Shown here: one piece after another, positions 1,361-59,120 of the stretch | Numbering within the stretch: position 1 is the stretch's first letter | Layout: each line of letters opens with the position of its first letter | Translations under genes and position numbers: made by a program | Notes under the pieces: generated by a model | What the model saw: only the letters and a program-made list of their open reading frames with translations | Database searches by the model: none | Told to the model about the DNA's origin: nothing | DNA from: a virus | IMG/VR virus record: IMGVR_UViG_3300028384_000991 | Location: 1 to 64,000 of that record | Length of the DNA: 64,000 nt | Direction: 5' to 3' (one strand)

Positions 1361-3121
1361 CTATTGTGCTGGAGGTGCTTCTCCACCGCCTGCTGGTGGT
1401 GCACCTGTTGTTGTATCAGGTGCCGCGCCTGTACCGCCATCAACTGGTGCTGGTTCTGCTTCAGGATCAACGTCTTCCATGCCGCCCATGTCTGCATCCA
1501 TTCCTGCACCACTAATACCAACGCCACGCATTTCGCCTGCGGCATCAGTTGGTAATGGTTTTAGATTTTCATCATTTTCTTCACGCCACATACGTTCGTT
1601 CTCTGCAATCTCTTCTTCTGTTAAACCCAAGAAACGTTTCATTGCATAACGATTTGATAAAAACGGAATTGCTTGGATTTGTGTAAATGTTGGAATACGT
1701 ACATTATCAAGTTCACTTTGTCTGTAACTTGCAAAGTTCATAGGTGGTTCAATCTTAAGATCAAACATACTAATATCAATATTAACACCTTTTTCTAACA
1801 AATAACGTTTAAATTCTTGGTTAAATTCTTCTGTAACAAGGTTTTGTAAACGTTCACAGTACTTGTTAAAGCGTAGTTCTTGAATGTATGCTGTACCAAC
1901 TCTACCATCGTTGTATTGACTTTGTCCTTCATCCTGTGCCGCACTTGGTAAGTATGAACTTGGAATACGTAAACCTCTAATAAGTTTATTAGTAAAGTAT
2001 TTTAAATCATCAATTTCACCTAAGTTAGTACCACCAGGTAGTGTTTCAACTTTAGATCCACGTCCTTCTGCTGTTTGTGGAAAGAAATAGTCTTCGTTAG
2101 TTGATAATGGATTGTACGCACTATCAATAACACTTGTTGAACCGCCCGATGCACTTGGAATACGTCTTTGATGAATTTCTGTTTTAACACGCTCAACAAA
2201 TTGCATTGCCAAGTGTGATGGCATATTACCTACATCAATATAGAACACACGTCTTTCTGGTGCTCTCTGTGTACGATAAATGATAATAGCATCTTCAAGT
2301 AATTCTTTTTGTTTGTAAACTTTAAAAATTGATTCTAACAGTGAATTACCAAATGGATAGTTGTTGTCTAAACCTTCTGATAGTGATAGGTGTACAACGT
2401 GTTCTGCATCAATTGCAAATTCTCTTTGTCCTGTTTGGAATCTTGAACCTGCCTGTGAAGTTCCAGTATTTCCTACCATACCCTGTGCGCCACCACTTTG
2501 ATAACCTGTAGAAGGTTGTGAAGCGCCGCCGCCTGTTACATTTCCTGATGTAACATATGGGTCAGTGATTACTTGATCTCTAAAGTTAAAATTAATATCT
2601 TTAATGATATACTGTTCTGGTTTTTTACCTTCTGATTCATTTACAATAATACGAGAAACTTTTGCAGGATCAATGTAATACCATTTTTTAGTTTCTGGAT
2701 CTCTTACAAAGAATGCATCTCCGTATTTGAATACATTACGTAAGATACGAAACATCTTAGTATCAAACTTTTGTAACTTGCTCCATTGCTGTAGGTATTG
2801 ACTTAATATTTTAACTTCTGTGTTTGTTGCTTTACTATTAAAGTGTAAATTAAAACTTGTGTGATTAGCAGGATTTTTTTGAGAACAAAACTCTGCAAGA
2901 ATATCCAAAGCCGCATTGACTTCAGAGTCGTTATCCATTACATTATATTGACCATAGCGTTCAACACGATTTGGTGAACCTACGTATACGTCTGGAAGAT
3001 ATGATGAATAATTAGAACGGGCAGGACCTGGTTCTGCGCCGCCTCGTCCACTAAATGGACTCATTGTACCCATGCTGTTATCAGCAGTTGGTACATTAGT
3101 AAAGTATCTTTTCCAACTCAT
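1361..3121 (-). CDS. gp20: Portal vertex protein gp20
   Basis: A 586-residue protein (T4 gp20 is about 520) forming the dodecameric portal through which DNA is packaged and where head joins neck. The segment at residues 41-83, YLPDVYVGSPNRVERYGQYN then VMDNDSEVNAALDILAEF, is the conserved portal region used in marine g20 surveys. Further conserved blocks follow (FRILRNVFKYGDAFFVRD; the RAPERRVFYIDVGNMP region). The C-terminal 60 or so residues from about 528 are a Gly/Pro/Ala/Asp-rich tail not present in T4 and probably disordered. The start at 3121 is 3 bases after the upstream stop, with AGGA inside the end of that gene, implying coupling to the tape-measure-like gene. Confidence 0.93.
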   Translation of the reverse strand: MSWKRYFTNVPTADNSMGTMSPFSGRGGAEPGPARSNYSSYLPDVYVGSPNRVERYGQYNVMDNDSEVNAALDILAEFCSQKNPANHTSFNLHFNSKATNTEVKILSQYLQQWSKLQKFDTKMFRILRNVFKYGDAFFVRDPETKKWYYIDPAKVSRIIVNESEGKKPEQYIIKDINFNFRDQVITDPYVTSGNVTGGGASQPSTGYQSGGAQGMVGNTGTSQAGSRFQTGQREFAIDAEHVVHLSLSEGLDNNYPFGNSLLESIFKVYKQKELLEDAIIIYRTQRAPERRVFYIDVGNMPSHLAMQFVERVKTEIHQRRIPSASGGSTSVIDSAYNPLSTNEDYFFPQTAEGRGSKVETLPGGTNLGEIDDLKYFTNKLIRGLRIPSSYLPSAAQDEGQSQYNDGRVGTAYIQELRFNKYCERLQNLVTEEFNQEFKRYLLEKGVNIDISMFDLKIEPPMNFASYRQSELDNVRIPTFTQIQAIPFLSNRYAMKRFLGLTEEEIAENERMWREENDENLKPLPTDAAGEMRGVGISGAGMDADMGGMEDVDPEAEPAPVDGGTGAAPDTTTGAPPAGGGEAPPAQ

Positions 3122-3124
3122 ATC

Positions 3125-5587
3125 TTATCCTAATCCTTTCAACAAGTTACCTTGTAATCCTTTAATAGCAGATAACTGTGCTTTAAGAAGTCTATTTTGT
3201 TCATATAATAATTCAGCAACAGCACTACTCATGTCGCCGCCCATAGTATTTACATCGGCGGTTGCCATCGCTCCGTCTTTTCCGGCAATAGCCTGAGTCA
3301 ATGCAGGATCCATTTTTTCTACTTCTGTGGGCGACGGCATCATAGCAGTTGTAACTTGATCTGGACTGTAACCTGCTAATTTACGTTTTTCGTCTTCAGT
3401 AAGTGGAATTCCTGTAACTTCTGATTTGGTTTCGGCAATTTTTTTCTCTGCTTCGTCTTCGTCATCGTCACCACCAAACCAACTAAATGGATTCAATGCT
3501 TTAATTTTACCCCAAATCCAATCTACAGTCTCACCAATCCATCCAAACATTCCACTGATAACATTGTATATTGTATTAATTGGAGTTTTAACCTTGTCAT
3601 AGATCCAAGAAAATATATCTCCAATCCAACCAAACATAGTTCCTATTACACTCCATAAGCCGCTGACTATTGGTTCTACTTTACCCCATATCCATTTAAA
3701 CATATCACCTATTTTTTCAAAAACAAAGAACATCATATCTAATGCTTCACCTACCCAACTTTTGATTGTTTCCCAACCAAAGATTGCCGCCAGTGCTAAA
3801 CCAATTGCAAGGAATGGTGCTATAATTGGACCCACTATGGCTCCTACAATAGTGCCTAACAATCCAACAACGAGTTTGGTTACAACTATTCCTGCTAAGG
3901 CTCCGATAGTACCAGCAATTAATTTTCCAATGTGTTTAGTAAAGAAATCTCCAAACCAACTTCCAAAAATTGTACCAATCTTTTCCATCGCTCTTGACAA
4001 TGCTGGAGCAAGTTTTTCTTCCCAGATTGTTGAAAAGAATTTACCCAAATCACCATCAGCCGCTTTCCAAGCATCTTTCAAGAACCCTGCAAACTCGTCA
4101 ATATATACAAGGGCATCTTCCATTACCTTGCCAATAGAATCTGTTAAACCTTCACCGTTATCAGTAAACCATTTAAGTAAATCACCAAACTTGTCGCCTA
4201 ATTTATCAAGAACACCGCTGTCGAGCAAGGCTTTCATAATTTTTGATCTAATCTCAGCAATCTTTGTTTCAAAGTTTGCAAGTTGGCTGGTCATCTTGTC
4301 GCGTTCTTTTTGTTCTTCTTCCATTTTTTTGAAATCAGCATTTCGATACTTGGTAGAGAACTTGTTATATTCTGCCATACCGCTCATCATTTCGCCAAAG
4401 CCGTCTTTGCCCATTAATGATTGAACCATAGCAGGATCCATCGATTTAACAAAGTCGTTAATCTGTGGACCAAACGCCGCCATCTTCTTGGCATATTCTT
4501 CTTGGCTTAAACTACCGTTGGCCATTTGTACTTGCAAGTCTTGGAATCCTGGAATTGTTGCCGCAAGTTTTTGTGCAAGTGGTGTTTGTGCTACACCGTC
4601 TGCCATGTCTTTGATTGCGTTACTAAAGCCAGGAAGTTCTGAATCCACAAACGCAATATTACTTTGAAAGTTTTCTAAAGCCTTACCTGACAGTTTACTT
4701 GCCATAACTTGTACGTTTGCTTCTGCCGCTTGTTTCTTAAGTAATGCTTCTGCTTCTTTACGTGATTTACCTGTAACTTTTGCAAGTCTGTCAATCTGCA
4801 TTAAGTAATCTTCAGAACCTTTTCTAAGTTCTGCTTGACTCATGCCAGATAGTCTGCCTTGCATTGCTAACTGATCCATGTATTCTACAGTGTGTTCGTT
4901 AAGAGCCTCAAAAGTAAAACCCATGCCTTGGAAATCTTTGTTACTATTTCTTATCTGTCTTGTTAGTAATCCAAACTGTTTTGCACCTTCTGTAGTTGTG
5001 CCTCCTAACAACATCATGTTTTGTGAATTTTGTCCTACAAATTCTGTAAACTGTGCTACACCCATACCAGCATCAGTTGCCGCTCTGGTTAATCCTAAAA
5101 CGCTGTTACCAAAACCTGCACCAACTTCTGATAAGTCTCTAAAATTATCAACCTGTCCTTCTAACATACTTGTTAATCCACCAAGTGCATTTCCAACAAT
5201 AGGAATATGCTGAAGAAAGTCTGACATTCTGTTACCGCCGGAAATTAATTCCATTGCTAACCCTTGGGCACTTGTAGCGGCCATTCCAAATGCGCCGCTA
5301 ACCATACCGCCTATCAGTTTTAGACCATTTCCAAAATCTTGTAGTGCAGTTGTTGTGTTGTTTATTTCGTCAGTGTATTTTCCTGTGCTTTTTGTTGCTT
5401 TTTGCATAATGCCAGCAAAACCGCCTTGTGCGCCGCCGCCTGCGCCACCTCCGGCACCGCCTGCGCCGCCGCCAGAACTACTCCCCTTGCCTTGTAAGGC
5501 ACGAAGTATTTCCTTCATTGTTGATTCTTCGGCCGCGTTTTTTGCTTCTACGACTCCAAACCCTGGTATATCTACCTGAACTGCCAT
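3125..5587 (-). CDS. Tape-measure-like tail protein
   Basis: An 820-residue protein with the features of a phage tail tape measure. It has a Gly-rich linker at about residues 33-58, long helical/coiled stretches (about 60-500), and a strongly hydrophobic segment at about 542-606 (LIAGTIGALAGIVVTKLVVG and on) that could insert in the host membrane. From about 615 to 700, amphipathic Trp-rich repeats of the form MFGWIG..WI..KV/IK recur. In T4 the equivalent is gp29 (590 residues); I infer the role from architecture rather than from a signature. It is immediately upstream of gp20 and divergent from gp26 across a 67-base gap. An alternative is another internal or ejected virion protein. Confidence 0.6.
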   Translation of the reverse strand: MAVQVDIPGFGVVEAKNAAEESTMKEILRALQGKGSSSGGGAGGAGGGAGGGAQGGFAGIMQKATKSTGKYTDEINNTTTALQDFGNGLKLIGGMVSGAFGMAATSAQGLAMELISGGNRMSDFLQHIPIVGNALGGLTSMLEGQVDNFRDLSEVGAGFGNSVLGLTRAATDAGMGVAQFTEFVGQNSQNMMLLGGTTTEGAKQFGLLTRQIRNSNKDFQGMGFTFEALNEHTVEYMDQLAMQGRLSGMSQAELRKGSEDYLMQIDRLAKVTGKSRKEAEALLKKQAAEANVQVMASKLSGKALENFQSNIAFVDSELPGFSNAIKDMADGVAQTPLAQKLAATIPGFQDLQVQMANGSLSQEEYAKKMAAFGPQINDFVKSMDPAMVQSLMGKDGFGEMMSGMAEYNKFSTKYRNADFKKMEEEQKERDKMTSQLANFETKIAEIRSKIMKALLDSGVLDKLGDKFGDLLKWFTDNGEGLTDSIGKVMEDALVYIDEFAGFLKDAWKAADGDLGKFFSTIWEEKLAPALSRAMEKIGTIFGSWFGDFFTKHIGKLIAGTIGALAGIVVTKLVVGLLGTIVGAIVGPIIAPFLAIGLALAAIFGWETIKSWVGEALDMMFFVFEKIGDMFKWIWGKVEPIVSGLWSVIGTMFGWIGDIFSWIYDKVKTPINTIYNVISGMFGWIGETVDWIWGKIKALNPFSWFGGDDDEDEAEKKIAETKSEVTGIPLTEDEKRKLAGYSPDQVTTAMMPSPTEVEKMDPALTQAIAGKDGAMATADVNTMGGDMSSAVAELLYEQNRLLKAQLSAIKGLQGNLLKGLG

Positions 5588-5654: not shown

Positions 5655-6554
5655 ATGGCAGAAAATAATACACCACGAGGCCCTATACCAATTCAGCCTC
5701 AAGGTCAAAACCCGCTGGCAAAACACTTTAGACAGCCTAAGATCTATCTTAGATTGCCTACAGGCGGCAAGTACTGGCCGGAAGGTTCAATTGATATGCC
5801 TGAAAACGGTGAGTTGCCAGTCTATTCAATGACCGCAAAAGACGAATTGGTCTTGAAAACTCCAGACGCACTTATTAACGGTCAATCAACTGTTAATATG
5901 ATTAAGAGTTGTATTCCAGCAATTAAAGATGGTTTTGCAATTCCAAGTTTGGATCTTGATGCAATCCTTGTTGCAATTAGAATTGCAACCTACGGAGAAA
6001 CATTAACAATTAGTACTGAAATTCCAAATACAAAGATTGAAAAAGAATATCAGGTTAACTTAGTTGAACTTTTAGATACTATGCAAACAAGAGTGTGGGA
6101 AGACCGCATTCATAGTCATGGTTTTACATTTGTGTTAAGGCCAAGTAACTATCTACAGTTTACCCAAGCGGCTTTAAAAGCATTTGAAGAACAGAGGATG
6201 GTTAAATCAATTGACGACTCTGAACTTAATGAAGAAGAAAAGTTAGCGAAGTTTAATGTTAGTTTTCAAAAACTAACACAACACAACTTAGAGATGGTTG
6301 TTCAACAGGTTGTTAGTGTACAGTTTCAAAATGAAGAACCAGTTACCAATGTAAATCATATTAGAGATTTCTTTGAAGGAACAGATGGTGAAATTTTTGA
6401 GGCTGTAAAAGAACATCTTGAAAAAATGAAGAACGAGTTTAACATCAAGCCACTTACAGTGATTACTGATGAAGAGGAACGTAAAGCAGGTGCTCCAGAA
6501 AAATTTGAAGTACCTATCTCGTTTGATCAATCAAATTTTTTCGCACGTCGATAG
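5655..6554 (+). CDS. gp26: gp26 baseplate/tail-assembly protein (T4_baseplate family)
   Basis: A 299-residue protein. Residues 21-75 (LAKHFRQPKIYLRLPTGGKY, then WPEGSIDMPENGELPVYSMT and AKDELVLKTPDALINGQS) followed by CIPAIKDGF and DAILVAIRIATYG are the hallmark of the T4 gp26 family. T4 gp26 (208 residues) is needed for baseplate-hub assembly but is hard to find in the finished tail, which fits an assembly factor. ATG at 5655 follows AGGAG and a late promoter. It diverges from the tape-measure-like gene, the usual neighbour of tail-assembly chaperones in other phages. The 3' end carries a slippery run leading into a -1 frame extension (see next entries). Confidence 0.88.
   Translation: MAENNTPRGPIPIQPQGQNPLAKHFRQPKIYLRLPTGGKYWPEGSIDMPENGELPVYSMTAKDELVLKTPDALINGQSTVNMIKSCIPAIKDGFAIPSLDLDAILVAIRIATYGETLTISTEIPNTKIEKEYQVNLVELLDTMQTRVWEDRIHSHGFTFVLRPSNYLQFTQAALKAFEEQRMVKSIDDSELNEEEKLAKFNVSFQKLTQHNLEMVVQQVVSVQFQNEEPVTNVNHIRDFFEGTDGEIFEAVKEHLEKMKNEFNIKPLTVITDEEERKAGAPEKFEVPISFDQSNFFARR
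6533..6542 (+). other. Candidate -1 ribosomal frameshift site
   Basis: The gp26 zero frame reads AAT TTT TTC here. Both A-AAT-TTT (6533-6539) and T-TTT-TTC (6536-6542) fit the X-XXY-YYZ slippery pattern. A -1 slip enters an open frame that runs to 6772 and encodes a conserved-looking domain lacking any ATG, GTG or TTG near its start. I see only a weak hairpin (ACGT/ACGT, 6545-6548 with 6556-6559) downstream, so the stimulator, if any, is unclear. Confidence 0.65.
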
Positions 6555-6772
6555 CACGTCTGCCTCTTGACCAAATCTTAAAGGAAACTAAACGCCTTGA
6601 AGATGAGTCTAAGCAAATCAAACATGACCTTCTAAAAATTGTTTGGTATATGCGAGGCGGCGTAACATTGACTGAAGCATATGAATTTGGTCCAGAAGAT
6701 CGTGAAATTGTAAAAAAAGTTATCGACGATAATCTTGAAACAACTAAGAAATCAGGACTACCATTCTTTTAA
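6542..6772 (+). CDS. gp51-like extension of gp26, reached by -1 frameshift
   Basis: This frame encodes about 76 residues after the slip: LPLDQILKETKRLEDE, then IKHDLLKIVWYMRGGVTLTE and ending NLETTKKSGLPFF. It is conserved-looking and helix-rich, like the assembly proteins following gp26 in T4-like phages (gp51 type), though far shorter than T4 gp51 (about 250 residues). The frame opens at 6527 and contains no ATG, GTG or TTG before the ATG inside VWYMRGG at about 6653, which would remove half the domain. With the slippery run at 6533-6542 this gives a gp26-fusion of about 372 residues beside the 299-residue gp26. The arrangement is that of tail-assembly chaperone pairs such as lambda G/GT. 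Alternatively it starts at a rare ATC, ATA or CTG codon. The stop at 6772 abuts the convergent stop at 6773. Confidence 0.68.
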   Translation, partial: RTSIARLPLDQILKETKRLEDESKQIKHDLLKIVWYMRGGVTLTEAYEFGPEDREIVKKVIDDNLETTKKSGLPFF

Positions 6773-23800: not shown

Positions 23801-24274
23801 AAATATAAAATATTGTTTGGTGACAAAGCAGACACTGATTTACAAGCAACATTTAAAGTAGTAAAAAATTCTGAACAAGTAACAAATGACAATGATATTA
23901 AGTTACGTATTGTTACAGCAATTAATCAATTCTTTAGTTTAGAGTTTTGGGACTTTGGCGATAAGTTTAGTTTTACAGAGTTAGCAACTTTCATTATGAA
24001 TAGTTTAGCACCGGATATTAATACAATAGTGTTAGTACCAAAACAAACTGACAAAGTTTTCGGAAGTTTATATGAAATTACAACCGAAAGTGATGAGATC
24101 TTTATTTCAAGTGCAACAGTAGAAGATGTTGAAATCATAGACAGTATTACAGCATCAAGGCTAAAAGCATCTGGCGCTGTTGTAACAACAGCATCAACGC
24201 AAAATGCTGGTATTACATCAAGTGCTAACACAAGTACAAGTACAAGTTCTAACACTGGAGGAAGTAGTTACTAA
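20804..24274 (+). CDS. gp6: gp6 baseplate wedge ring protein
   Basis: A 1,156-residue protein (T4 gp6 is 660). The N-terminal conserved block, FKSYDFDSLRRTMISYLREN then YIESSEYLALIDLIAYLGQN, then RESVLRLARLLSYNPKR, is the gp6 signature also shared with gpJ-type wedge proteins. The extra length lies in the middle and C-terminal half, in beta-rich and DSDADGV-type acidic segments. The C-terminus returns to gp6-like sequence (FFSLEFWDFGDKFSFTELAT) and then a Ser/Thr tail of about 40 residues. gp6 dimers join wedges into the ring that changes shape on infection. Its stop shares TAATG with the giant gene, so stoichiometry may be coupled. Confidence 0.9.
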   Translation: MSTTDRQNRLLLAEDWKRVYQTFKNADFKSYDFDSLRRTMISYLRENYPEDFNDYIESSEYLALIDLIAYLGQNLAFRVDLNARENYLELAERRESVLRLARLLSYNPKRNQTANGLLKFESVQTSEDITDSNGVNLSNQTIIWNDPSNPDWSEQFRKVLNAALPENAIVGRPIKKETINGITTEQYRYNATNANLPVYSFNKNVGEKNMVFEVTSAGITPDKIYEETPLPGNSLAFLYREDGKGAGSSNTGYFFHFRQGVLDNGTFTIDTPTTNQTVAIDATNINNSDVWLYKLDSNGNEESQWTKVDAIEGNNVIYNSLSKSQRDIYTVLTRIEDRISLLFADGTFGNLPKGRFRVYYRKSIGRRFAIQPEELTNISITVPYESRAGSSETITITASLKYTVDNASATETNTSIKTNAPSTFYTQNRMITGEDYQVAPRSISQEIIKSKSINRTSSGISRYFDLIDSTGKYSSTNIYGDDGAIYREVFDKKINFSFVTRTDVEGAIENTVQPILRNILIKNFYLSEFPKTAADDLGATWTQVARQTNNSSGYLEDTNNIKLTTGTFTGSTLRYLEPGALIKFIAPAGKHFMTNDYNKLMDGPADHPNATTFIWTKVVQVNSDGTENYEDGQGPIIFNDVIPTGALLNEIKPKFATALTDDVISQMIDQIFAYKTFGLRYSLADREWRVILNSNLSIGNAFNTGRTGDSSNQNLDSSWLLLFETDGEKYTITYRGVRYIFESDKEVRFYYDETDQIYDSRSGKIITDKINLLSINKKPGSTEAFTIDYPWQITKEYRDEEGYVNSKKVEISFFDSDADGVIDNPDSFLNFVAPDVDPLTKWVFLKEEITNNQSTNFNYVDPAVENIKVYEFEASTGPLSTFDDGTIFYFTDADVFKQYSSSTGVLTLITNYRAYKGRDKIKFQYVHSADENNRLDPSSTNIIDTYLLTSTYDRSFRQYLNGAVSDKPLPPSSDELFQNFGSSINKIKSISDEVIYHPVKYKILFGDKADTDLQATFKVVKNSEQVTNDNDIKLRIVTAINQFFSLEFWDFGDKFSFTELATFIMNSLAPDINTIVLVPKQTDKVFGSLYEITTESDEIFISSATVEDVEIIDSITASRLKASGAVVTTASTQNAGITSSANTSTSTSSNTGGSSY

Positions 24275-27200
24275 TGGCATATGATAACGATCAAAACGAG
24301 TTTCCGATTAGTCCAGATGGTGAAAATGAAAAAAGAACCAGTCTAAGCCACCTACCTCGTTATTTTAGAACTCCAGCAAATAAAAAGTTTTTAACAAGCA
24401 CACTTGACCAATTAACACAGCCAGGTGTAGTTGAAAAACTTAATTCCTATTATGGTAGAAAAGATGCGAAAGCATTTACACAAGACGACAACTATGTAGG
24501 TGATGTTTCAAAACAAAGAGAAGATTATCAATTAGAACCAGCAGTGGTTTTAAAAGATAATGTAGATAATGTAAATTTCTACAAGGACTATAACGACTAC
24601 ATTAATCAGTTACGTTCTTTTGGTAACAATAACAAAGATCATAGCAAGATTAATGCACAAGAATATTATGCATGGAATCCGCATATTGATTGGGACAAGT
24701 TTGTTAACTTTAGAGAATATTATTGGTTACCAAGCGGCCCGCAGGTATTACCTATCTATGGACAAAACAAAGAGATAGTTTCTACTTTTAAAGTATCATT
24801 GGAGGAGAATGATGACAACGTAGTTTACAAATTTACCCCAACAGGTTTAACACAAAATCCTACTTTAAAACTTTACAAAGGTCAAACTTACATTTTTGAA
24901 GTTGATTGTCCGGGACATCCTATAGCATTCGCAACTAATAGAGCCTTTACTCCGGGACAAGCAATTATTACCGAAACAGTAGAAGGTGTGTTGGCACCTG
25001 GTAAGTTTGAAGCAGAACTTTTTGACAGCGACGGCTATGATACTGGCGAATACATAGTAGAACCAGTTGAAGGCGGAATTACAGGATGGACAGAAGGCGA
25101 TAACGTTTCTACACTTTATACAGATGGCGTAGAATCAGCAACAGTGTTTGTTGAGAAAGGAACACTTAAATTTACGGTGCCTTTAGACGCACCAGATAGG
25201 TTATTCTATATTAGTAAAAATGATGTTAATACAAGTGGTACTATATTAATGTATAACATCTTAGAAAATACAGAAATTAATGTAGAAGAAGAAATACTTC
25301 AAAAGAAAACATACACAACAAGAACAGATGTTGATTTATCAAACGGTATGCTTGTTGAATTTCTTGGTGATGTAACTCCTGCAAAATACGGCGAAGGTAC
25401 CTGGTATGTAGAAGGCGTAGGAGATAGTATCAAACTTATTAATAAAAATGATTTAGAAATCACAGGTGCTTACAGTTCTAATTTGTTTGTACCTTTTGAT
25501 ACAGAAAATTTTGACAAACTTCCGTTTGGTCAAGCACTAAATTATCCTAAGGAACAAGATTATATTACAATCAATCGTGCGGCAATTGACGGTAACCAAT
25601 GGTCGAGACACAATAGATGGTTCCATAGAGATGTTATTGAAAAAGTTGCAAAAGCAAACGGTACAGAAGTTGATATTGATCAATCACAACGTGCTAAAAG
25701 ACCTATTATTGAATTTGACCCAGGATTAAGATTATACAATTATGGATCTAAGTTTAAATCAAATGTTGATTTAATTGATGATAAAACTAATGATGTGTTT
25801 TCGATCATTGAAGGCTCTATCGGTTACAACGTTGATGGAGTTGATTTAATTGAAGGTCAACGAGTATTGTTTACAGCAGATCCTGATATCAGAGTAAATG
25901 GTAGAATCTATAAAGTCAAGTTTATTAATCATCTTGGTACAAGACAAATTGCATTACAGGAAGAAACAGATACAGATCCTCAAACAAACGAAACTGTATT
26001 AGTACAGAACGGTACAGAAAATCAAGGTAAAATTTATTGGTATAATGGTACTAAGTGGATCAAAGCACAAGATAAATTAACTTCAAATCAAGCACCGTTA
26101 TTTGATTTGTATGATGACAGCGATACTACGTTTTCAACATACGAAAGCAATACTTTTACAGGAACAAAATTATTTTCATATAAAGAAGGTAATGGTGCAA
26201 ATGACTCGGTACTTGGGTTTCCATTAACTTATAGAAATATCGAAAACAGTGGTGATATTGTTTTTAGTTTCGATTTACTTAATAATGAATTTACATATCA
26301 AGTTGGACAAGTTAGTTATACGCAAAAAACTGATGTTGCAACATTAAGAAAATATACTGATCTAAATGCATACGAAAATGTAAGTGGCTGGAAAAAAGCG
26401 GCAACAGATAGTAAACAAAAAGTTATACGTCAGTATGTAGTTGAAGGACAAAAGAATAATTTTGCAGTTGATGTTTATAATAGAAGCGGTGATCTAAATG
26501 AGTTAGACGTCAAAGTTTTTGTAAACAACGAACGCAGAACTGATTGGGAAATTAATAGAGAAAACGGAATAGCATACATTACGTTTACTAAAAATTTAAC
26601 AAACGGTGATAATATTATTTTACACTGTACAAGCGAAGCAGATAAAAACGATAATGGACATTATGCATTTCCTATTAACTTACAAAATAATCCATTGAAT
26701 GATAATATAGTTGATTTTACATATGGCGAAGTTGCTGATCATGTAACAACTATTATTGAAAATGTTGAAGGATTTACAGGAAACTATCCAGGAAGTAGTA
26801 ATTTACGAAACTTAGGACAGTTATCTGAGTACGGTACAAAATTTGTACAACACAGTGGTCCTGTATCTCTTGCAAGTTATCATATCACAAACAAAAATTA
26901 TAACATTGTAAAATCGCTAAGATTTGCAAGAAAAGAATATGCAAAATTTAAAAGATCGTTTATTTCAATTGCCAGTGAATTAGGCATTGACGGTAATGCA
27001 AGATTCCTTACTGATAAAATTATTGAAAAGTTTAAGTCAGAGAAATCTAAACAAACAGCATTTTATTGGACTGATATGATTGGCAGTGGTGCAAGTACCA
27101 AGCGTTCATTTACAGTTGTTGACACAGGAAATAAATTTTACAGTTTAACAAATCCTTTTAATTTAAATGATGTTTCTGCAAAAGCAGTATATGTTTATGT

Positions 27201-30200
27201 TAACGATGAACAACTATTACACAATAGAGATTATACATTTACTAACGAAGGGTTTATTCAAATTACTGATAAGGTAACTTTGGCAGTAGATGATATTGTA
27301 GATGTTTACGAGTATGAGTCAACTGATGCTTCGTACATTCCGCCTACTCCAACAAAGTTAGGATTATGGCCTTTGCACATTCCGGAAAAATACACGGACA
27401 ACACTTATCAAACTCCGCAGACTGTAATTAAAGGTCATGACGGTAGTATTATAAAAGCATATGGCGATTATCGTGACGATGTTATTTTAGAGTTAGAAAA
27501 AAGAATTTATAATAATGTCAAAGTAGCATACGATAAAGAAATTTTTGACGTTGATAGTTTTATTGGGCACAAGTCCAGAGATACAGGATTTACAAACGAA
27601 GATTTAGATGATATTATCATCACAGATTTTGCTGAATGGTTGGCAATAGCAGGTGATCCTGACTATACAGATAATAGTTTTTATGATAGAACAAATAGTT
27701 TTACATGGAACTACAGTTATATGTCAGATCCAGATAGTAAACCTCTACCTGGTTTTTGGAGAGCAATCTATAAACAATACTTTGGAACTGATACTCCTCA
27801 CACAACACCTTGGAAGATTTTAGGATTTATTGATAAGCCTGATTGGTGGGAAACAGTTTATGGTCCAGCACCATATACAAAAGAAAATTTAATTTTATGG
27901 GAAGATTTACAAGAAGGTAGAGTACGCCAGCCTGATAATCCTATAAGATATAGACCTAATTATGCAAGAAAAGATTTATTAAAATATATTCCAGTTGATA
28001 GTCAAGGTACATTATTAAGTCCATACGAGTCTGGTTATGCACAAGGATTAATTGTTCCAGAAACAAATAGACAGTTTGTCTTTGGAGATGAAGCACCAAC
28101 AGAAACAGCATGGCGTAGAAGTTCTGAACTTCCGTTTGCATATATTACTGCATGGGCAATTCATCAACCTGCAAAAGTTATTGGTCTTGGTTTTGATAGA
28201 TCAAGAATTAAACGTAATGCGGCAAACGATTTAGTGTACACAGGAAACGATAAGCGTGTTAGATTAAGCGATCTAATTTTCCCTAACACCTCAGATAGCA
28301 CAGTCAGGGTAACTACCGCTGGTTTGGTAAATTATATTTTTAATTACATCAATGCAGATGTTACTAAACTTAATGAAACTTATAGTAGCGAAGTAAAAAA
28401 TCTATCCGTTCAACTTGGATTTAAGATTGGCGGATTTACTACAAAAGACAAGTTTAGATTAATTTTAGATTCTCGTACACCTAATAACAAAGGTAACGTG
28501 TTTATTCCAGAAGAAAACTATAAACTATTTGTAAACACATCTTCGCCTATTGACACAGTATCTTATAGTGGTGTAATTATTGAAAAACGTCCAGGCGGTT
28601 ATATTGTAAGAGGATACGATAAAGCAAAGCCTTACTTTAATTATTATCCTTATATTGAACGTGCAAAGGATCCTGTAATTAATGTAGGCGGTGTTAGTGA
28701 ATCGTTTCTTGAATGGCAATCCGGACAGCGTTACCAAAAAGATCAGATTGTTAGATTTGGTGACAATTACTTTAGAGTTAAAGTAAGCGGAACGTTTGAT
28801 ACTTTCGAACAAGACAATTTTGCAAAACTTGCAGAACTTCCTATCGAAGGAGGTAAAGATGCAATACTGCGTAGAAACTTTGAAACAGAAACAGCAAAGT
28901 TAAACTATGGTACTTTGTATAGAACCACACAGGAAGTAGTAGACTTTTTACTTGGATATGGAAAATACTTAGAAGATAAAGGATTTGTCTTTAGTAAATT
29001 TAACAATAACATAGAGACTATTGAAAATTGGGAATTAAGTGCAAGAGAATTTTTATTCTGGACTACACAAAATTGGAATTCGGGTGCGTTAATTACATTG
29101 TCTCCAAGTGCAGTTAATCTACAGTTTTACAGAGACTATGCAGTTGTAGACAATATATTTGATAATTTCTATGATTATACATTGTTAAAAGCAGACGGGC
29201 AGAAACTTCAAGAAGACTTTGCTAACACAATTAGAAGCAGTCAAAATGAATTTGGATTAACTCTTAAAAATACAGCAGATGGAATTTACTTTGTAAAATT
29301 ACCACTTGTACAAAAAGAACACGTATGTTTACTTGATAATAAAACTGTGTTCAATGACACAATTTACAATCCTGGACCAGGATATAGACAGCAAAGAGTT
29401 AGAGTACTTGGTTACAGAAGTGTAGACTGGAACGGAAGTATTAACATTCCAGGATTTACTCTTGATAATGTAAAAATTACAGACTGGGCAGAAAATGTAG
29501 ATTATAATATTTCAGATGTTGTTTATTATAAAACACGTTATTATAGTGCAAAATATAAAATTCCTGGTGCTACAGAATTCAATGATGATGATTGGTATTT
29601 GTTAACTGATAAACCAGAACCTAAACTTATTCCAAACTTTGATTACAAAGCAAATCAGTTTGCAGATTTTTATGATCTTGATACAGATAACTTTGACAGT
29701 GAGCAACAGCGTCTTGCACAACATTTAATAGGATATCAAAAACGTACATATCTTGAAAATATTATCAATGACGATGTATCACAATATAAGTTCTATCAAG
29801 GATTTATTCAAGATAAAGGTACATTAAATTCTTTAGAAAAATTATTTGATGCGTTATCAAATACAGAAAATTCAAGTTTAGAATTTTTTGAAGACTGGGC
29901 ATTCAAAGTAGGACAATACGGTGCAAGTGATTCGTTTGAAGAAGTTGAATACGAAATTGATGAATCTAAAATAAGACTTAGTCCGCAACCGTTTCAATTA
30001 ACACAAACTATTGATCCTCTTGCCACAGACTTGGTTTATAGATATACTCCGGTTGATGTTTATAACAAACCTGAAAATTATAATCATGCACCGTTCCCAA
30101 CAAAATATATTGATGAAAATGATTCGTATATTAAGACTGCTGGCTATGTTGCAGAAGAAGATGTTGATTTTAAAGTAACAAATTATAATGATATTTTAGA

Positions 30201-33200
30201 TTTAGATCTAAACCAAGTTAGTGTTGGGCAGTATATTTGGGTAGCCAAGAGAGCACAAACTTGGGACGTACTTCGTCAAACTGAAACTGATATGAAAGTT
30301 GTCAGTATTATTAATAGTGACAGTTCTAAATCTATAGAAATTAAAACACGTAAAGCACCAACAGTTGAGAAAGATGATATAATTGGTGTATTGGGTGTTG
30401 GTACATCACAAAATAGATTCTATAAAGTTTTAAGAGTAAGTTTAGATGTTATCTATGCAGAAACCACAGGCGAAGTTGACGATGCTGAAGAAACAAGTGG
30501 ATTTATTTTAAAACTTATTAGTTCACGTGTATCAACATTGAATGATGTAAACAGCAAAATTACAAGAGACAATTATTCTACACAAGAGCGAGTTTGGGTT
30601 GACAATGACGAAAACAATAGATGGACAGTTGTTGAAAACACAAATAACTATGAACTACGTCAAAGTCTTGTTAATAGCACTATTCCAGGTACATTAGGAA
30701 CAGACACAAGATCTTTTGGAACAAGCATTTCTGCAAACAATAATAATACAATAGTTGTTGCAGGATCGCCAGGAACAACAGAAGCAGGTAGAGTAGATAT
30801 TCACTTTAGACCTGGAGAAAATATTAATCTTGTGTTATCACAATCAATTGATTGTCCAGAAAATTATCTAAGTGGCGAAAATAGTTTTGGTCGTGCAACA
30901 GCATTAAGTTCAGACGGTAAGTGGTTGTTTGTTGGTGTGCCGTATGCATCTAATGTTAAAACAAAATACAGAGGACAATTTGCACCAGCGGCAGTTTACC
31001 AAAAAGATGAAATTGTAAAATATACTAATCAATATTGGAAAGCAAAAAGCATTATTGAGCCAACAGATCCAAGTTTAGATTTTCCAAGTTTTAGTTCGCA
31101 CTTGCAACATTTGATTAGCACATATGACACAACCACTAATCAATATGATAACATTTATTATATTCTTAGAGGAAACTTCTTATTCCAAGAAGAACAAACC
31201 GATCATGTTCTAATTAGAGCACCAAGGCTTGCATACGTTGCAACAACACCAGGAGACGAACTTGAATTAGTATGGAATGATATTAATACAAGATACCCGA
31301 GCGGTGTGCAACCATTTAATGGCAATCCTACATTAAGTAAAACATTCTTTGACGGCAGACACGAAATTGCAGACAAAATTGATGATATATTATTAGTTGA
31401 TAATACACAGGCAATTCCAAGTGTAGGTGAAACTATATCAAGTTCGACAGCAGTTGGTATAGTTGCATTTGCATATACAACAGGTGATAACAGAACATTA
31501 ATTTATATTAGAGATGCTAATGGTGACTTTGAATCTACAGGTAATTTATTTGTAGGTGACATTGGCATTGGGGCATATGAAAGAGCAGTTGAACAAGATG
31601 TAGACGGACTTGGCGGTTGGTGGAAAATTAATGTTGGAAGTGATTATCAATCTATTGCAACTATTGAAACAAAACCATACCTTGTTATTAAAGATGTAAT
31701 TCAAGAAGGATCGGGTAGAACACCAAACTACTATGAAAATGTTTTAAGAATTACAGACGATCCAAGTTCACCTACAACAACATCGTACATTGAGTCACTT
31801 ACATTTACAGGTGACGACGGTGACGAAATTGCTGACAAGTGGGTATTTAGAGCACCAAGGTCTTTAGATGCTAATTTAGCAGTAGGTGATACATTAAACT
31901 TTTTCTTTAATGAATATAGAAATGCAGATAATTTACTACAAGATCCGTCAGTGATTTCAAGTGTTATTACACATGACTATCTCAACAACAATGCTCATAC
32001 AATTGATGATTTGTGGGACGGTTGGATTGAAGTAAACCTAACAAACTTTGATGATAGAGGATCTCCAACTGAAGGTGATGCTGATTACAATCCTAATTAC
32101 GGTAATCCATTTATTCCAGTTGTTGGTGATATTGTACAAGACAACGACACACTTGCTACTGCTGAAGTTACCTATGTTGAAAAAACATTTAATGATTTAA
32201 GACTATGGGTGAAAAATACAACAGGAACTTGGAAACTTGGTTTAAACAACGGAAACATATCAAGTTTAAGTATTGTGGGTGGCTCGCAAGGTGTAGGTGT
32301 TATCAGACTTGTAGGTACAACCGATACAGTAAATTTACAGTCAACAACAGCAGGCTTTATTGTTGTAGTTGATAGAGGAACAAATCTTCCAAGAGGAACA
32401 ACACGTACACTACAAGGTTTTGAATATTGGGTGTACAAGTCACAGTTATTAGATGGTATTGCAAGAGATGCTAATCCCCCATCTAAAACCAACAATGACT
32501 GGCAAAGGGTTTATAATATTCCAGCAGATGAAAGCGGAACAGCAAGTACGTTGCAAAGACAAGGTGCATATGCAATCTACGAACGTAATGCAAGTAACTT
32601 CTATCAATTAAACGGAATTTATGTAACACCAGATCTTGAAGCAGAACGTTATCTTGGCAGTGATATTAAAATTGTATCACATACAAATAATACCTACAGT
32701 GCTTACATTTTAAGTAAGGGTAATGGCACATTTGATCAACCAGGAAGAATAAACATTATAAACTGGTCAGCAGACGGCGGTTGGAAACTTGGTGCAGATG
32801 AAGATTATAGAGGTGACTTCTTAACCACTGTAACTTATTTCAAAGACGAATATGTAAAACAAAACGGAAATGTATATCAAGCAAAAACTAATCTAATACC
32901 AGGTGCGTTTGATGTAAATGACTGGGAAGAAATTACAACTGGTGTTGACCTAAACGGATTCCTACCAAACAGCACAGGATTTATCGTAGGCACTGACAGT
33001 GCAATTGAAACTGATAATTTATATGAGTTTGGAACCCAGTTCGGTGTAAGTTTCACAGGTGATGTATTAGCAACCATTGCCAAGTACGGTGATGCTGTTG
33101 ATAGTTCTATAGCAACAAGAAAGTTAGTAATTTACAGAAAATCGTTGTTAGGTCATTATGTATTTGATCAGATGATAGACGCTCCGTATGCTAATATCAA

Positions 33201-36200
33201 TTATGGTGACTCAATTGCAGTGTCCACTGATGGAAAGTTTATTGCAGTTGGTGCACCTAATTATACTGACACATATGCAAATCAAGGCACAGTATTCATA
33301 TACGAACAGGTTAACGGAAGATTTGAACAAGTACAGCATCTAACAGGTCCTAAAGGATTACCAAACGAAAAATTTGGTACAGTAGTTAGATACGACAATG
33401 ATAGAATTGTTGTACACTCAGCAGGTGGTGATCTGTTTAGTAATACCGAGATAGATTCAGGTACTACAGTGTTTGATAATGCTACAACAAGATTTACATC
33501 AAAACTTGTTGATACAGGTGAAGTTTTTGTATTTGAATTATTAGGTAATAGATACGTTTACAGTGACAAATTAGAATTTGCAGATACAAGAACATTGTAC
33601 TTTGGTAGAACAATGTTAATCAAAGGCAATCACATTTATGTTTCATTGCCACAATACACACGTGAAAATAATAATTCGTCAGGATTAGTTTTAGATTATA
33701 GAGTAAAATCTAATTCAAGACTTTGGGAAAGAAAACGTAATGCAAGGCCTCTGGTTAATCTTGACAAGATCAAAAGCATTTCTGTTTATAATAAAGATAC
33801 AAAAATTGTTGAAGAATATTTAGATTACATTGATCCAATCCAAGGAAAAATTGCTGGAACAGCAGAAGTAGAGTTATCCTTTAAAACATCATTCGATCCT
33901 GCAACATATAATAATGTAATAGAAGGAAAAGTAAACAAAGACATTACTACATTTACAGCAGGCGAAATGGTAGGAAAACTTTGGTGGGATACTGATGCTG
34001 TTAGATTTATTAATCCATATAGTAATACTGGAAACATATTTAATGTAAGCAATACAATGAATACAATTTTCCCAGGTACAGAAATTGAAGTTTACGAATG
34101 GGTTGAAAGTTTACTAACACCAGAACAATGGGACGCAGAAGCAGACTCAGAAAGTGGAGTTGCAAGAGGTATCAGTGGTACAACCAAGTACGGAATGAAT
34201 GCGTATAGTACTAAGAAAGTATATGATAAACCTGCACAAAAATTTACAACTTATTATTACTACTGGGTAAGAAATAAGAAAACTGTTCCAGATGTACCTG
34301 GTAGAACAGTAAGTGCCGCTGATGTACAAGAATTAATAAGAGATCCGTCAGGTCAAGGATACAAATATATTTCATTGTTGAACAACAACGAATGGACTAC
34401 ACATAATATTGAAAGCACTATTAGAGGATTAAACACTATTCTAAAATTTGCTTATTGGACTATTGACAATACTGAGAAAAATATTCACAATCAATATGCA
34501 ATTATTACAGATGGATTAGAAACAAGTGTTCCTAAATCCGATCTTGAACGCAAGTGGTTTGATAGTTTGATTGGTTATGACGAACAAGGTAGAGAAGTTC
34601 CTGATAGATTCTTAAGCGAAAAACAACGTTATGGTATTCTTAATACACCAAGACAAACAATGTTTGTTAACAGAATTGAGGCACTAAAACAACTTGTAGA
34701 AAGAATTAACGGAGTGTTAATTAAGAATGTTTTAATTGACGACTTTGACTTATCTAATTTAGAAGAGAATGATCCTATACCAACATTAGCGTCAAGACGT
34801 TATGATGTACAGATTGATTCCAATAAAGAATTAGAATTTGTAGCAGTAGGAAGAGTACAACGTGCAACATTATCTGCAACAATTCAAGATGGTAAAATTT
34901 TAAGAGTTGATATTACCAATCCTGGTAGAGGATATAAAACAGTACCAACTGTAAAAATCAACAGTTCTACCGGTGAAGATGCAGAAATTGCATTAGAGAT
35001 TAATAATGTAGGTACTGTTACAAGTGCTACAGTAATTGACAGCGGAAGAAATTACCAACAAGGCGATACAATTACTGTGAGAAACTTTACAGTATTAACA
35101 ACTGTAGATGAAAGTTATGCAAATAAATGGTCGTTATATGAATACCAAGGCGGTACTGATCCTTGGGATAGAGTTGCAAGTCAACGTTTTGATGTTAAGC
35201 CTTATTGGAATTATGTAGATTGGTATGCAACAGGTTATAACGATTTAACAAAAGCAGACTTTGTTATTGATGAAACATATGAATTGGAATCTTTAGATGA
35301 TTCGTTTGGTAGTATTGTTAAAATTAATTCTGTAGGTTCGGGCGGATGGCTATTGCTTAGAAAAATTGATGATCAAGCCAATGTTGACTATACAGTTAAC
35401 TACGAAACTATTGGTAGACAAAATGCTACTATACAATTAGATAAATCTATTTACGATTACAATGATCAATTGGTTGGCTTTGATAGTTTTGGTTATGACG
35501 ATAGTGCATTTGATTTACAACCAGTTGACGAATTAAGAATAATCTTTAAAGCACTAAGAGATAAAATTTTAGTTGATAATTTAGCAATTCATTACAATGA
35601 ATTATTTTTTGCACAGATGCGTTATGTGTTATCAGAACAAAAATTTGTTGATTGGATGTTTAAGACAAGTTTTGTAAAAGCAAAACACAATATTGGTAAA
35701 CTAAGAAAAGATATAACATTTAATAATGACTTCTTAGAAAGTTATGAAGCGTATGCTAATGAAGTAAAACCATACAAAACTAAGATAAGAGAATACCTAA
35801 GCACATATGAAGGTGAAGAAAAATCTCAAACAATGGTTACGGATTTTGACTTACCAGCAGTGTATGACGAACAGCAAGGAAAAATTGTTCCTCAAAATGC
35901 TGTTGTAGTAGATGACGAAGTACGTGTTGCAAGTGATGTAATTAATTCTTATCCATACAAACATTGGAAAGACAATGCAAGTTTTCAAATCAAAGAAATT
36001 AGCATTGCTGATGCAGGTTCAGGATATGAAAATGCTCCTGGTGTTGAATTTGTCGGCGGTGGCGGCACAGGCGCTACAGCAACAGCATATGTTGGTGGCG
36101 GAAAAATTACTGAAATAAAAATTGATAATCCTGGAACAGGTTATGTAAGTGCGCCAAGTATTGTTCTAAATGGTTCGGTTGCAGATGGCGGTAGAACTGC

Positions 36201-49520: not shown

Positions 49521-50394
49521 AATACAAGATGTTGATATTATTTTCTTAAGTTATGACGAACCTAATGCTGAAGAAAATTGGGCAGATCTACAACGTAAAA
49601 TTCCGTGGGCAAAGAGAGTACATGGTGTAGAAGGTTCAGACGCCGCACACAAAGCCTGTGCAGACTTGTCAGAAACAAAACACTTTGTTACAGTAGACGG
49701 TGATACTATTGTAGACCCTAAGTTTATGCAAGTAGAATTAGATTTAGACAAATTAAATGTTGATGACGATTATCAATTCAGTTGGTGCGGAAAAATTGAA
49801 GCAAACGGACTTATGTATGGCAACGGCAGTTTAAAAATGTGGACAAAAGATTTTGTCAAGAATATGAAAACACATGAAAACACTGACGGCACCGATGAAA
49901 CAAGTATTGAATTTTGTTACTTTGACAACTATTATCAATTAAATGAAAACTACAGTACAAGTATTATTACTTCAACACCACAACAAGCCTGGAGAGCAGG
50001 ATTCCGTGAAGGTGTTAAGATGTCATTGGATAGAGGAAAGCCTGTAGAAGATATTAATACACTATGGTGGCAGAATAAACATAGATTATATATTTGGCAA
50101 ATGGTAGGTTGTGATATTCCAAATGGTATTTGGGCAGTATATGGTGCTCGCCTTGGTACATATATGAATATGTGTACAGAATGGGATCATACACAAACAA
50201 GAGATTTTACATATCTAAACAATCTATGGAAAGAACACGAAAGCATAGATGTTGCAGAAGAATGTAAAGAGTTAGGAAAAAAATTAATTAACGAATTAGA
50301 TTTGCCTATTGCTGTAGTGCCATTTGATAAATTACAAAGTGAATTTTTTAAAACTGTTTATCTAAACAGTGATAGAGTGATTAGACGTAAATGA
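49507..50394 (+). CDS. Glycosyltransferase family 2-like protein, copy 1
   Basis: A 295-residue protein starting at TTG 49507. The start VDIIFLSYDEPNAEENWADL and HFVTVDGDTIVDPKFM (DGD near residue 64) follow the GT2 layout: an N-terminal beta-strand, a loop with EPNA, then the DxD-like metal site. The gene at 58434 has the same start (IVFISYGEPNADNNWERL) and DGD, so the two are paralogues. GT2 enzymes transfer sugars from nucleotide donors. It overlaps the following radical SAM gene by 4 bases (ATGA). Confidence 0.7.
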   Translation: MSKIKIQDVDIIFLSYDEPNAEENWADLQRKIPWAKRVHGVEGSDAAHKACADLSETKHFVTVDGDTIVDPKFMQVELDLDKLNVDDDYQFSWCGKIEANGLMYGNGSLKMWTKDFVKNMKTHENTDGTDETSIEFCYFDNYYQLNENYSTSIITSTPQQAWRAGFREGVKMSLDRGKPVEDINTLWWQNKHRLYIWQMVGCDIPNGIWAVYGARLGTYMNMCTEWDHTQTRDFTYLNNLWKEHESIDVAEECKELGKKLINELDLPIAVVPFDKLQSEFFKTVYLNSDRVIRRK

Positions 50395-51770
50395 GCGAAG
50401 TAGATAGAATCAAGCAAATTATGCCTGAGATTGATAAAATCTCTCCTACGTTCTGCTTGGCTAAATGGCATCATGTTACTATCTATTTGCAAACAGGTGA
50501 AACACACAGTTGTTATCATCCAGCGCCTCATAAGATTCCGTTAGAAGGATTAATTGATAATCCAAGTCAGTTACATAACACTCCGCAAAAAAAGCAAGAA
50601 CGTAAACAAATGCTTGACGGAGAAAAACCAAGCGGTTGTCAATACTGTTGGAATATTGAATGTATGGGCAAAGACTATGTAAGCGACAGGCATATTAAAA
50701 CAGCAAGTATATATAGGCCAGATCGCATAGAAGAAATTACCAGTAACCCGTGGGATTATGATATCAACCCCGAGTATATTGAAGTAAACTTTAGTAACGA
50801 ATGTAATTTTAAGTGTGGTTACTGTCATCCTAAGTTTAGTACAAGTTACTTTAACGAAATTAAAAAGCACGGACCATATACTAAAAGCACAGCACATCGT
50901 AATGATATTGATTGGTTTGAATTGTATGAAGAAAGTGCAAACCCTTATGTAGACGCATGGTGGAAATGGTGGCCTGAAGTTTCCAAGACTCTTAATATTT
51001 TAAGAATTACAGGAGGTGAGCCTTTAATGCATAAGAGTACTTGGAGGCTTTTTGACGAACTTGAAAACAATCCTAAGCCTCATATCCAAATAGAACTTAA
51101 CAGTAATATGGGTGTAAAAGATAAACTTGTTAAAAAACTTGTCGAGCGTATTAAGTTACTAAAAGAAAAAAATTGTATTAGAAGTTTTAAATTGTATACA
51201 AGTATTGATACTTGGGGACCTCGTGCAAGTTATACACGTAGAGGACTTGACTTAGGATTATGGGAACGTAACCTTGATTATTATCTTAAAAATCTTGGTT
51301 ATCCTGTAACATTTATGATTACGTTTAATTTATTTGCAGTTACAAGTTTTGATAGGCTACTTAAAAAGATTTTAGAATGGCGCAGTAAGTATAACAAAAA
51401 TAATTTAACACAATGGCAAAATATTAGATTTGATACTCCGTATTTAAAAGAGCCAATCCAATTTGATATGAATATACTTCCTAAAGAAAAATTTATGCCT
51501 TATATGGAAAAGCATTTAAAATTTATTGCAGAAAATGTAGATGATGCAGATAAAACAAAATTTAGTCTGTTAGAGTATGAGCGTTTTCGTAGAGTAGTTG
51601 ATTATATGAGAACTACAGAATACAATGATGAAAAATTACTTGACGGCCATAAAAATTTTTATAATTGGTTTACAGAGTATGATAAACGTAGTAATACTAA
51701 CATAACTGAAATATTTCCTGAGTTAGAAGATTTTTATATTAGTTGTAAATCTAAAGTACTACCTGATTAG
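50391..51770 (+). CDS. Radical SAM enzyme with N-terminal twitch/SPASM-like cluster, copy 1
   Basis: A 459-residue protein. The radical SAM motif CNFKCGYC (C138, C142, C145) binds the [4Fe-4S] cluster that cleaves S-adenosylmethionine, and TGGEPL (207-212) binds its methionine part. Before it lies an extra cluster-type set C22, C41, C83, C86 and C91 (FCLAKWHHVTIYLQTGETHS, GCQYCWNIEC). This order, auxiliary domain first, is that of the N-terminal twitch-type radical SAM family. The gene at 62261 has the same spacing. Such enzymes modify peptides, sugars or cofactors; substrate unknown. Its last 20 bases overlap the convergent gene. Confidence 0.82.
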   Translation: MSEVDRIKQIMPEIDKISPTFCLAKWHHVTIYLQTGETHSCYHPAPHKIPLEGLIDNPSQLHNTPQKKQERKQMLDGEKPSGCQYCWNIECMGKDYVSDRHIKTASIYRPDRIEEITSNPWDYDINPEYIEVNFSNECNFKCGYCHPKFSTSYFNEIKKHGPYTKSTAHRNDIDWFELYEESANPYVDAWWKWWPEVSKTLNILRITGGEPLMHKSTWRLFDELENNPKPHIQIELNSNMGVKDKLVKKLVERIKLLKEKNCIRSFKLYTSIDTWGPRASYTRRGLDLGLWERNLDYYLKNLGYPVTFMITFNLFAVTSFDRLLKKILEWRSKYNKNNLTQWQNIRFDTPYLKEPIQFDMNILPKEKFMPYMEKHLKFIAENVDDADKTKFSLLEYERFRRVVDYMRTTEYNDEKLLDGHKNFYNWFTEYDKRSNTNITEIFPELEDFYISCKSKVLPD

Positions 51771-58446: not shown

Positions 58447-59120
58447 TGTTTATAAGTTACGGTGAACCTAACGCTGATAATAATTGGGAAAGACTAAAGA
58501 GTCAATTTCCAATGGCTAAGCGTGTGAAAGATGTAGAAGGAATACATCAAGCACATATCACCGCGGCAAAAAAATGCTTTACAAAAATGTTTTGGGTAGT
58601 TGACGGAGATGCTGAACTACTTGATTTCAACTTTGACTATGAGGTTTCCGAGTGGGATTTAGAAACAGTTCATGTATGGAGAAGTATAAATCCTGTCAAT
58701 AACTTGGAATATGGATACGGTGGTGTTAAACTTCTCCCTCGCACACTCACGTTAAACATGGACACCACCGTACCCGACATGACTACAAGTATCAGTGATA
58801 AATTTAAGGCAGTAGATCAAATAAGCAATCTAACAGTTTTTAATACAGATCCTTGGAATGCATGGAAGAGTGGATTTAGAGAATGTTGTAAACTTGCAAG
58901 TAAAACAATTAAAGGACAAGTTGACGAAGAAACTGAAAAGCGTTTAGATATTTGGTGTACTGTAGGTGAAGATGCCGAGTTTGGCAAATATGCTATTCAT
59001 GGTGCACAAGTAGGTAGACACTTTGGCGAAGCACACAAAGACGATAAAGATATGCTTTACAAAATAAATGATTTTAAATGGTTGAAGGAGCAGTTTGATG
59101 ACTACGAAGATTCCATTTAA
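58434..59120 (+). CDS. Glycosyltransferase family 2-like protein, copy 2
   Basis: A 228-residue protein paralogous to that at 49507: IVFISYGEPNADNNWERLKS then MFWVVDGDAELLDFNFDY (DGD near 57), and DPWNAWKSGFRECCKL, matching copy 1 TPQQAWRAGFREGVKM. It is shorter at the C-terminus. Both copies sit directly before a radical SAM gene, so a transferase and a radical SAM enzyme may form a unit that was duplicated. It overlaps the SGNH gene by 13 bases and the next gene by 23. Confidence 0.68.
   Translation: MYDIVFISYGEPNADNNWERLKSQFPMAKRVKDVEGIHQAHITAAKKCFTKMFWVVDGDAELLDFNFDYEVSEWDLETVHVWRSINPVNNLEYGYGGVKLLPRTLTLNMDTTVPDMTTSISDKFKAVDQISNLTVFNTDPWNAWKSGFRECCKLASKTIKGQVDEETEKRLDIWCTVGEDAEFGKYAIHGAQVGRHFGEAHKDDKDMLYKINDFKWLKEQFDDYEDSI

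Follow-up and report, generated by a model that had tools for sequence, protein, structure and literature searches.

A near-invariant slippery site at the end of a gp26-like gene points to a frameshifted tail assembly chaperone in T4-like phages

The gp26-like gene and the frame overlapping its end

The window, the whole stretch of DNA analyzed here, comprises the first 64,000 nucleotides of virus record IMGVR_UViG_3300028384_000991. Read directly from the sequence, its gp26-like open reading frame ends in AAT TTT TTC GCA CGT CGA TAG, and an open −1 frame spans 6527 to 6772 (81 codons). The initial annotation had proposed that a programmed −1 frameshift fuses these two frames, on the grounds that the second one lacks an ATG, GTG or TTG for more than 40 codons; its earliest such codon is indeed the ATG at 6650, 41 codons in. 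Two slippery heptamers had been named as well, and both are present in the X_XXY_YYZ phase. The features of the locus are as follows.

1361 to 3121, minus strand: T4-like portal protein gp20, given as context (PF07230, 1.7e-107)
3125 to 5587, minus strand: tape measure protein of 820 aa, divergent neighbor (phrog_58, 6.1e-21; phrog_1535, 1.4e-17)
5655 to 6554, plus strand: gp26-like open reading frame (T4_baseplate, PF12322), putative short tail assembly chaperone, 299 aa, stop codon TAG at 6552 to 6554
6533 to 6539, plus strand: heptamer A_AAT_TTT, also in phase, not conserved and probably incidental
6536 to 6542, plus strand: slippery heptamer T_TTT_TTC in zero-frame phase, seen in the sequence and kept among relatives
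6542 to 6772, plus strand: −1 frame extension after the slip, 76 codons and stop codon TAA
6562 to 6571, plus strand: GCCTCTTGAC element, at constant spacing from the slip site within the window's clade

A shift on T_TTT_TTC would read C6542 twice and yield a long form of 372 aa, made up of 296 zero-frame codons and the 76 codons after the slip. The adjacent tape-measure-like gene, which had also been pointed out earlier, is borne out by its profile matches. Among five neighbors examined in relatives, none matched a tape measure family at an E-value of ≤0.01; two matched a "virion structural protein" family and three had no match. The gp26-like open reading frame is the sole PF12322 match in the whole 156,563-base record. 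A second copy is possible because the record may be a fragment.

The window also holds a single open reading frame of 4960 codons (24274 to 39156), very long by the standards of phage structural genes, and several Cys-rich open reading frames (50391 to 51770, 59095 to 60057, 61270 to 62268, and 62261 to 63562), whose translations look radical SAM/SPASM-like by eye and which adjoin glycosyltransferase-like and methyltransferase-like open reading frames.

Conservation of the slip site and of the −1 frame

Loci for comparison were chosen by homology of the first, gp26-like protein and not by the slip site. The first set had 86 entries (the window, 80 viral-contig loci that were the best 80 of 315 relatives, and 5 phage records), of which three (L014, L044, and L082) were dropped, their gene ends being lost at contig ends. 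In this set, including the best 80 of 315 relatives, T_TTT_TTC lay in phase near the stop codon in 83/83 gp26-like open reading frames. The second set of 83 loci was collected with the gp26 proteins of cyanophage P-SSM2, Vibrio phage nt-1, and Rhizobium phage I1_9 as queries; 82 carried TTTTTTC and one TTTTTTG, and of the 570 relatives found with P-SSM2 this set again holds the best 80. Ten more phage records bring the total to 176 gene ends, 172 of them with TTTTTTC in phase, a count that includes the best 80 of 315 and the best 80 of 570 relatives. Many of these loci are near-duplicates, and we recounted them as protein-identity clusters: T_TTT_TTC is present in 70/74 clusters at 90%, 34/37 at 70%, and 10/13 at 50% identity. 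Hence, the comparison of homologues proposed in the initial annotation came out in favor of a conserved slippery run. The relatives that bear the site include cyanophages, KVP40-like phages, and jumbo phages at 25 to 33% protein identity, and the same arrangement is found in the cultured phages Atu_ph07, Phosso, MIJ3, 121Q, S-PM2, P-SSM2, and nt-1.

The four exceptions are two TTTTTTG sites (L095 and L182, both Rhizobium I1_9-like), one TTTTTTA site (Pseudoalteromonas phage XG4, L097), and one gene end without the site (Vibrio phage D532, L091). In all four the −1 frame is still open, with an ATG close by. A search of the viral contigs with the D532 protein found no relatives. Elsewhere within the same open reading frames, Phe-Phe is encoded by TTTTTC in 5/125 cases, and an in-phase TTTTTTC occurs only twice across the 176. 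Of the two heptamers named initially, only T_TTT_TTC can thus be assigned a likely role; we rejected A_AAT_TTT as a working heptamer, since the triplet preceding the T run varies.

A search of genome contigs returned two relatives (L189 and L190), both on contigs of one Neomarinimicrobiota metagenome-assembled genome and outside the count of 176, which share the TTTTTTC junction. They are either phage contigs binned with the bacterium or a hint to a host.

The −1 frame evolves as protein-coding sequence, judging by its substitutions: in 95 pairs with 10 to 60 differences, drawn from 56 distinct −1 sequences of equal length, codon positions 1, 2, and 3 carried 938, 409, and 2,235 changes. Conservation in the alignment starts at the Phe-Phe of the slip site, and 35 −1 domain sequences share nine invariant residues (F1, F2, R3, W37, M39, R40, G41, R56, and K71). 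Both the kept heptamer and the coding −1 frame support the programmed −1 frameshift that had been proposed.

How could ribosomes enter this frame? Within the window's clade, 0/25 loci have an ATG among the first 20 codons of this frame, and 3/25 have a GTG or TTG there. Because there is no ATG in this stretch, a frameshift is the sole obvious route of entry. The expectation that the second frame has no start of its own holds in this clade; it fails in the cyanophages (an ATG within 20 codons in 82/82) and in most loci from cultured jumbo phages or others (11/15); other marine loci have one in 15/53. Some of these near ATGs overlap the zero-frame stop codon. A separate C-domain protein is possible in the cyanophages and the other loci because of this ATG, and there frameshifting and an own start could both operate, to judge from the sequences. 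The codons ahead of the near ATG are mostly kept as Phe-Phe-Arg. Several records annotate a "gp51" from the near ATG or from a later one. In S-RIM2 (L191, 5738 to 6636) the annotated second gene starts about 50 nt past gp26, and in Atu_ph07 (L002, 3316 to 3552) about 100 nt past it. Since the annotated starts lie well 3′ of where the conserved −1 domain begins, the "gp51" proteins in the databases are truncated.

Elements around the slip site and relationship to gp26 and gp51

While the heptamer is kept, its surroundings differ between groups. In the cyanophages and the marine relatives, the local fold energy in 50-nt windows has a minimum +5 to +10 nt past the site (−13.4 and −11.9 kcal/mol, respectively, against about −5 kcal/mol in the surroundings); no such minimum was found past the site in the window's clade. 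Codon-shuffled controls over 60 nt gave mean z scores of −3.0 for the cyanophages (n = 11, chosen), −2.7 for the marine group (n = 17, chosen), and −0.2 for the window's clade (n = 13), which reached −1.8 over 120 nt. For the window's clade we rejected a conserved stem downstream of the site, the alifold energy being 0 over 80 nt. The cyanophage stem starts 5 nt past the heptamer and its pairs are kept in 45 to 47 of 47 sequences; the support for it is conservation and position, because covariation is almost absent. RNAalifold found no common structure in the marine groups, though single sequences fold strongly, so the marine stems either cannot be aligned across the group or differ.

The cyanophages also have a Shine-Dalgarno (SD)-like GAGGG at −14. 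An SD-like tetramer is present in 57/60 of them, and the Glu codon at −14 is GAG in 55/58, compared with 241/1,149 elsewhere. The window's clade has an SD-like tetramer in 0/11 sequences. Lacking both the stem and the SD-like motif, this clade may shift with low efficiency or may need another stimulator. The GCCTCTTGAC element, at slip +26, is identical in 10/11 distinct sequences of the clade and uses minority codons (elsewhere, Pro is CCT in 24/85, Leu is CTT in 50/173, and Asp is GAC in 37/156). A search for a pairing partner from −300 to +330 nt found at best a place common to 4/11 sequences.

The N part of the window's protein belongs to the family of T4 gp26 by its match to PF12322 (32.7 bits, cut-off 24.5) and to the baseplate hub family phrog_150 (8e-9). 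In T4, genes 26 and 51 are separate, as the initial annotation had stated, and we find them to be two divergent and paralogous genes: each product matches PF12322 across its full length, the two match each other with an E-value of 2e-6, and gp51 carries an additional C-terminus. This C-terminus is matched by the cyanophage −1 domain with an E-value of 1.1e-12 in hhalign, and phrog_634, the gp51 C-terminal domain, is matched by 11/11 cyanophage and other such −1 domains. The term "gp51-like" is therefore well founded for the cyanophages. The window's own −1 domain has weak hhalign matches to the cyanophage domain (E-value of 5.7e-4) and to the gp51 family (4.4e-4), both at a probability of about 30%, and it did not match phrog_634 in a comparison with PHROG; position and pattern suggest that it is likely gp51-like. 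The homology between the window and T4 runs through the cyanophages, with an E-value of 1.2e-12 between the N part of the window plus jumbo phages and the cyanophage gp26 group. Scored with an HMM of the window and jumbo phage fusions, T4 gp26 and gp51 themselves fell under any meaningful score.

The model of the N part (pLDDT of 83.6) has T4-like baseplate hub assembly proteins among its BFVD matches; in the PDB, Foldseek gave no match at an E-value of ≤0.001. Aligned with the HK97 gp13 chaperone (2OB9) in VIA-align, it reached a Z of 5.9 and an rmsd of 5.8 over 88 residues, with unrelated rows scoring up to 7.7. The −1 domain is modeled by AlphaFold as helical (mean pLDDT of 85), and no match to the C part was found in BFVD at an E-value of ≤0.001.

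The fold of the N part (5655 to 6551) also matches, in BFVD, uncharacterized proteins of 450 to 690 aa from other jumbo phages (among them Erwinia phage Special G, Ralstonia phages RSF1 and RP12, Klebsiella phage Eowyn, and phiEaH2). These model-based matches make it possible that such proteins are unrecognized chaperones.

A predicted frameshifted chaperone, its alternatives and its relatives

We consider it very probable that the locus, from a marine T4-like virus, encodes a tail assembly chaperone with a programmed −1 frameshift, giving a short form of 299 aa and a long form of 372 aa. What leads to this reading, and is established at the level of sequence comparison, is the conserved site, the coding −1 frame, the lack of an ATG in the window's clade, the neighborhood, and the family of the N part. 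That the slip occurs, its rate, and the functions of both forms we infer by analogy. Most ribosomes would stay in the gp26-like frame until the TAG at 6552 and produce the short form; a minority would slip by −1 on U_UUU_UUC (6536 to 6542), bypass the stop codon, gain 76 residues, and produce the long form. If the analogy with lambda gpG and gpGT holds, the tape measure protein (3125 to 5587, minus strand) would be coated by many copies of the short form, and a few long forms would recruit the tail tube protein.

Vibrio phage D532, without a slip site, speaks against the frameshift. The second frame could instead be expressed as a small protein in its own right, through coupled reinitiation or from its own start, with the T run kept merely as Phe-Phe coding. 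The near ATG in 82/82 cyanophage and 11/15 other loci, in some of them overlapping the zero-frame stop, and the "gp51" annotated there in several records fit this explanation, which we nevertheless find unlikely: the window's clade has a near ATG in 0/25 loci and the other marine group in just 15/53, nearly all loci keep Phe-Phe-Arg ahead of the first ATG, and the Phe-Phe of the slip site is almost always TTT TTC, compared with 5/125 elsewhere. Slippage of RNA polymerase on the T run would give mixed mRNAs and thereby both products, and a six-T run is indeed present in every kept site. Six U residues are short for slippage by a bacterial polymerase. Moreover, C follows the T6 run in 172/175 sites lying in the X_XXY_YYZ phase, and the spacing of the stems and SD-like motifs present in two groups is ribosomal, all of which makes this explanation very improbable. 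Homopolymer runs are also frequent places of sequencing error, and what is truly one open reading frame could look split through misassembly or gene decay. This we regard as next to negligible, given that the arrangement recurs across more than 80 separate contigs as well as cultured phages and that the −1 frame is coding; independent records already refute it.

Frameshifted tail chaperones were reportedly surveyed by Xu, Hendrix and Duda in 2004. Lambda, with the slippery sequence G_GGA_AAG, resembles the window in its two overlapping frames, a −1 shift close to where the first frame ends, and an adjacent tape measure gene. The slippery sequence of the window is a different one, no sequence homology to lambda was shown, and the window's tape measure gene, unlike lambda's, is on the opposite strand and divergent. 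Another −1 frameshift system is E. coli dnaX, to which the cyanophage members are similar in having an SD-like motif before the slip site and, about 5 nt past it, a stem; dnaX uses another heptamer, and the window's clade is without either element. Passages of PMC5009743 describe the lambda gpG/gpGT chaperone frameshift, our model for the functions of the two forms. Closer in kind are the Vandenendeviridae and Andersonviridae, for which parts of PMC12846349 (the Adele paper) report a chaperone frameshift with a GTTTTT motif. Like the phage of the window, these are myoviruses in which TAC-N ends with an invariant poly-T and the −1 frame is open; they differ in family and motif.

The T4-like phages themselves have been discussed in this light. 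As cited in passages of PMC10885494 and PMC12846349, Vladimirov, Gautam and Davidson (2022) identified gp26 and gp51 as the short and long tail assembly chaperones of T4. According to the same passages, some T4-like phages use a short gene and a longer fused gene rather than frameshifting (PMC10885494), and poly-T slippery sequences are known in T4-like TAC-N genes (PMC12846349). The link between T4 genes 26 and 51 and the frameshifted chaperones, drawn in the initial annotation, therefore holds and is not new, as far as these passages go. Because the principle is already published, the window is a new case of a known principle. Our literature search, made outside the text of Vladimirov et al. 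(2022), found no paper that names the site in the marine or the 121Q/Atu_ph07-like clades; possible novelties are the near-invariant site, the swapped stimulators, and the GCCTCTTGAC element.

The N part of the window shares the PF12322 family with T4, which has the separate genes 26 and 51 where the window has a single PF12322 gene and a −1 extension. T4 gp26 has kept the Phe-Phe in the nonslippery form TTC TTT, in contrast to TTT TTC in the window. A possible, if rather doubtful, history is that the common ancestor of T4-like phages already had U_UUU_UUC and that its helpers have been swapped since, with an SD-like motif and a stem in the cyanophages, a stem in the marine group, and a new stimulator, GCCUCUUGAC, 19 nt past the heptamer in the window's clade, while T4 would have duplicated the gene into 26 and 51 and so escaped frameshifting.

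In summary, our work corrects the usual "gp51" annotation in cyanophages and jumbo phages, in that the conserved protein begins at the slip site, before the annotated ATG. The family provides a natural series with a constant slippery site and changing stimulators, as well as a clean system for asking how T4 swapped a frameshift for a gene duplication.
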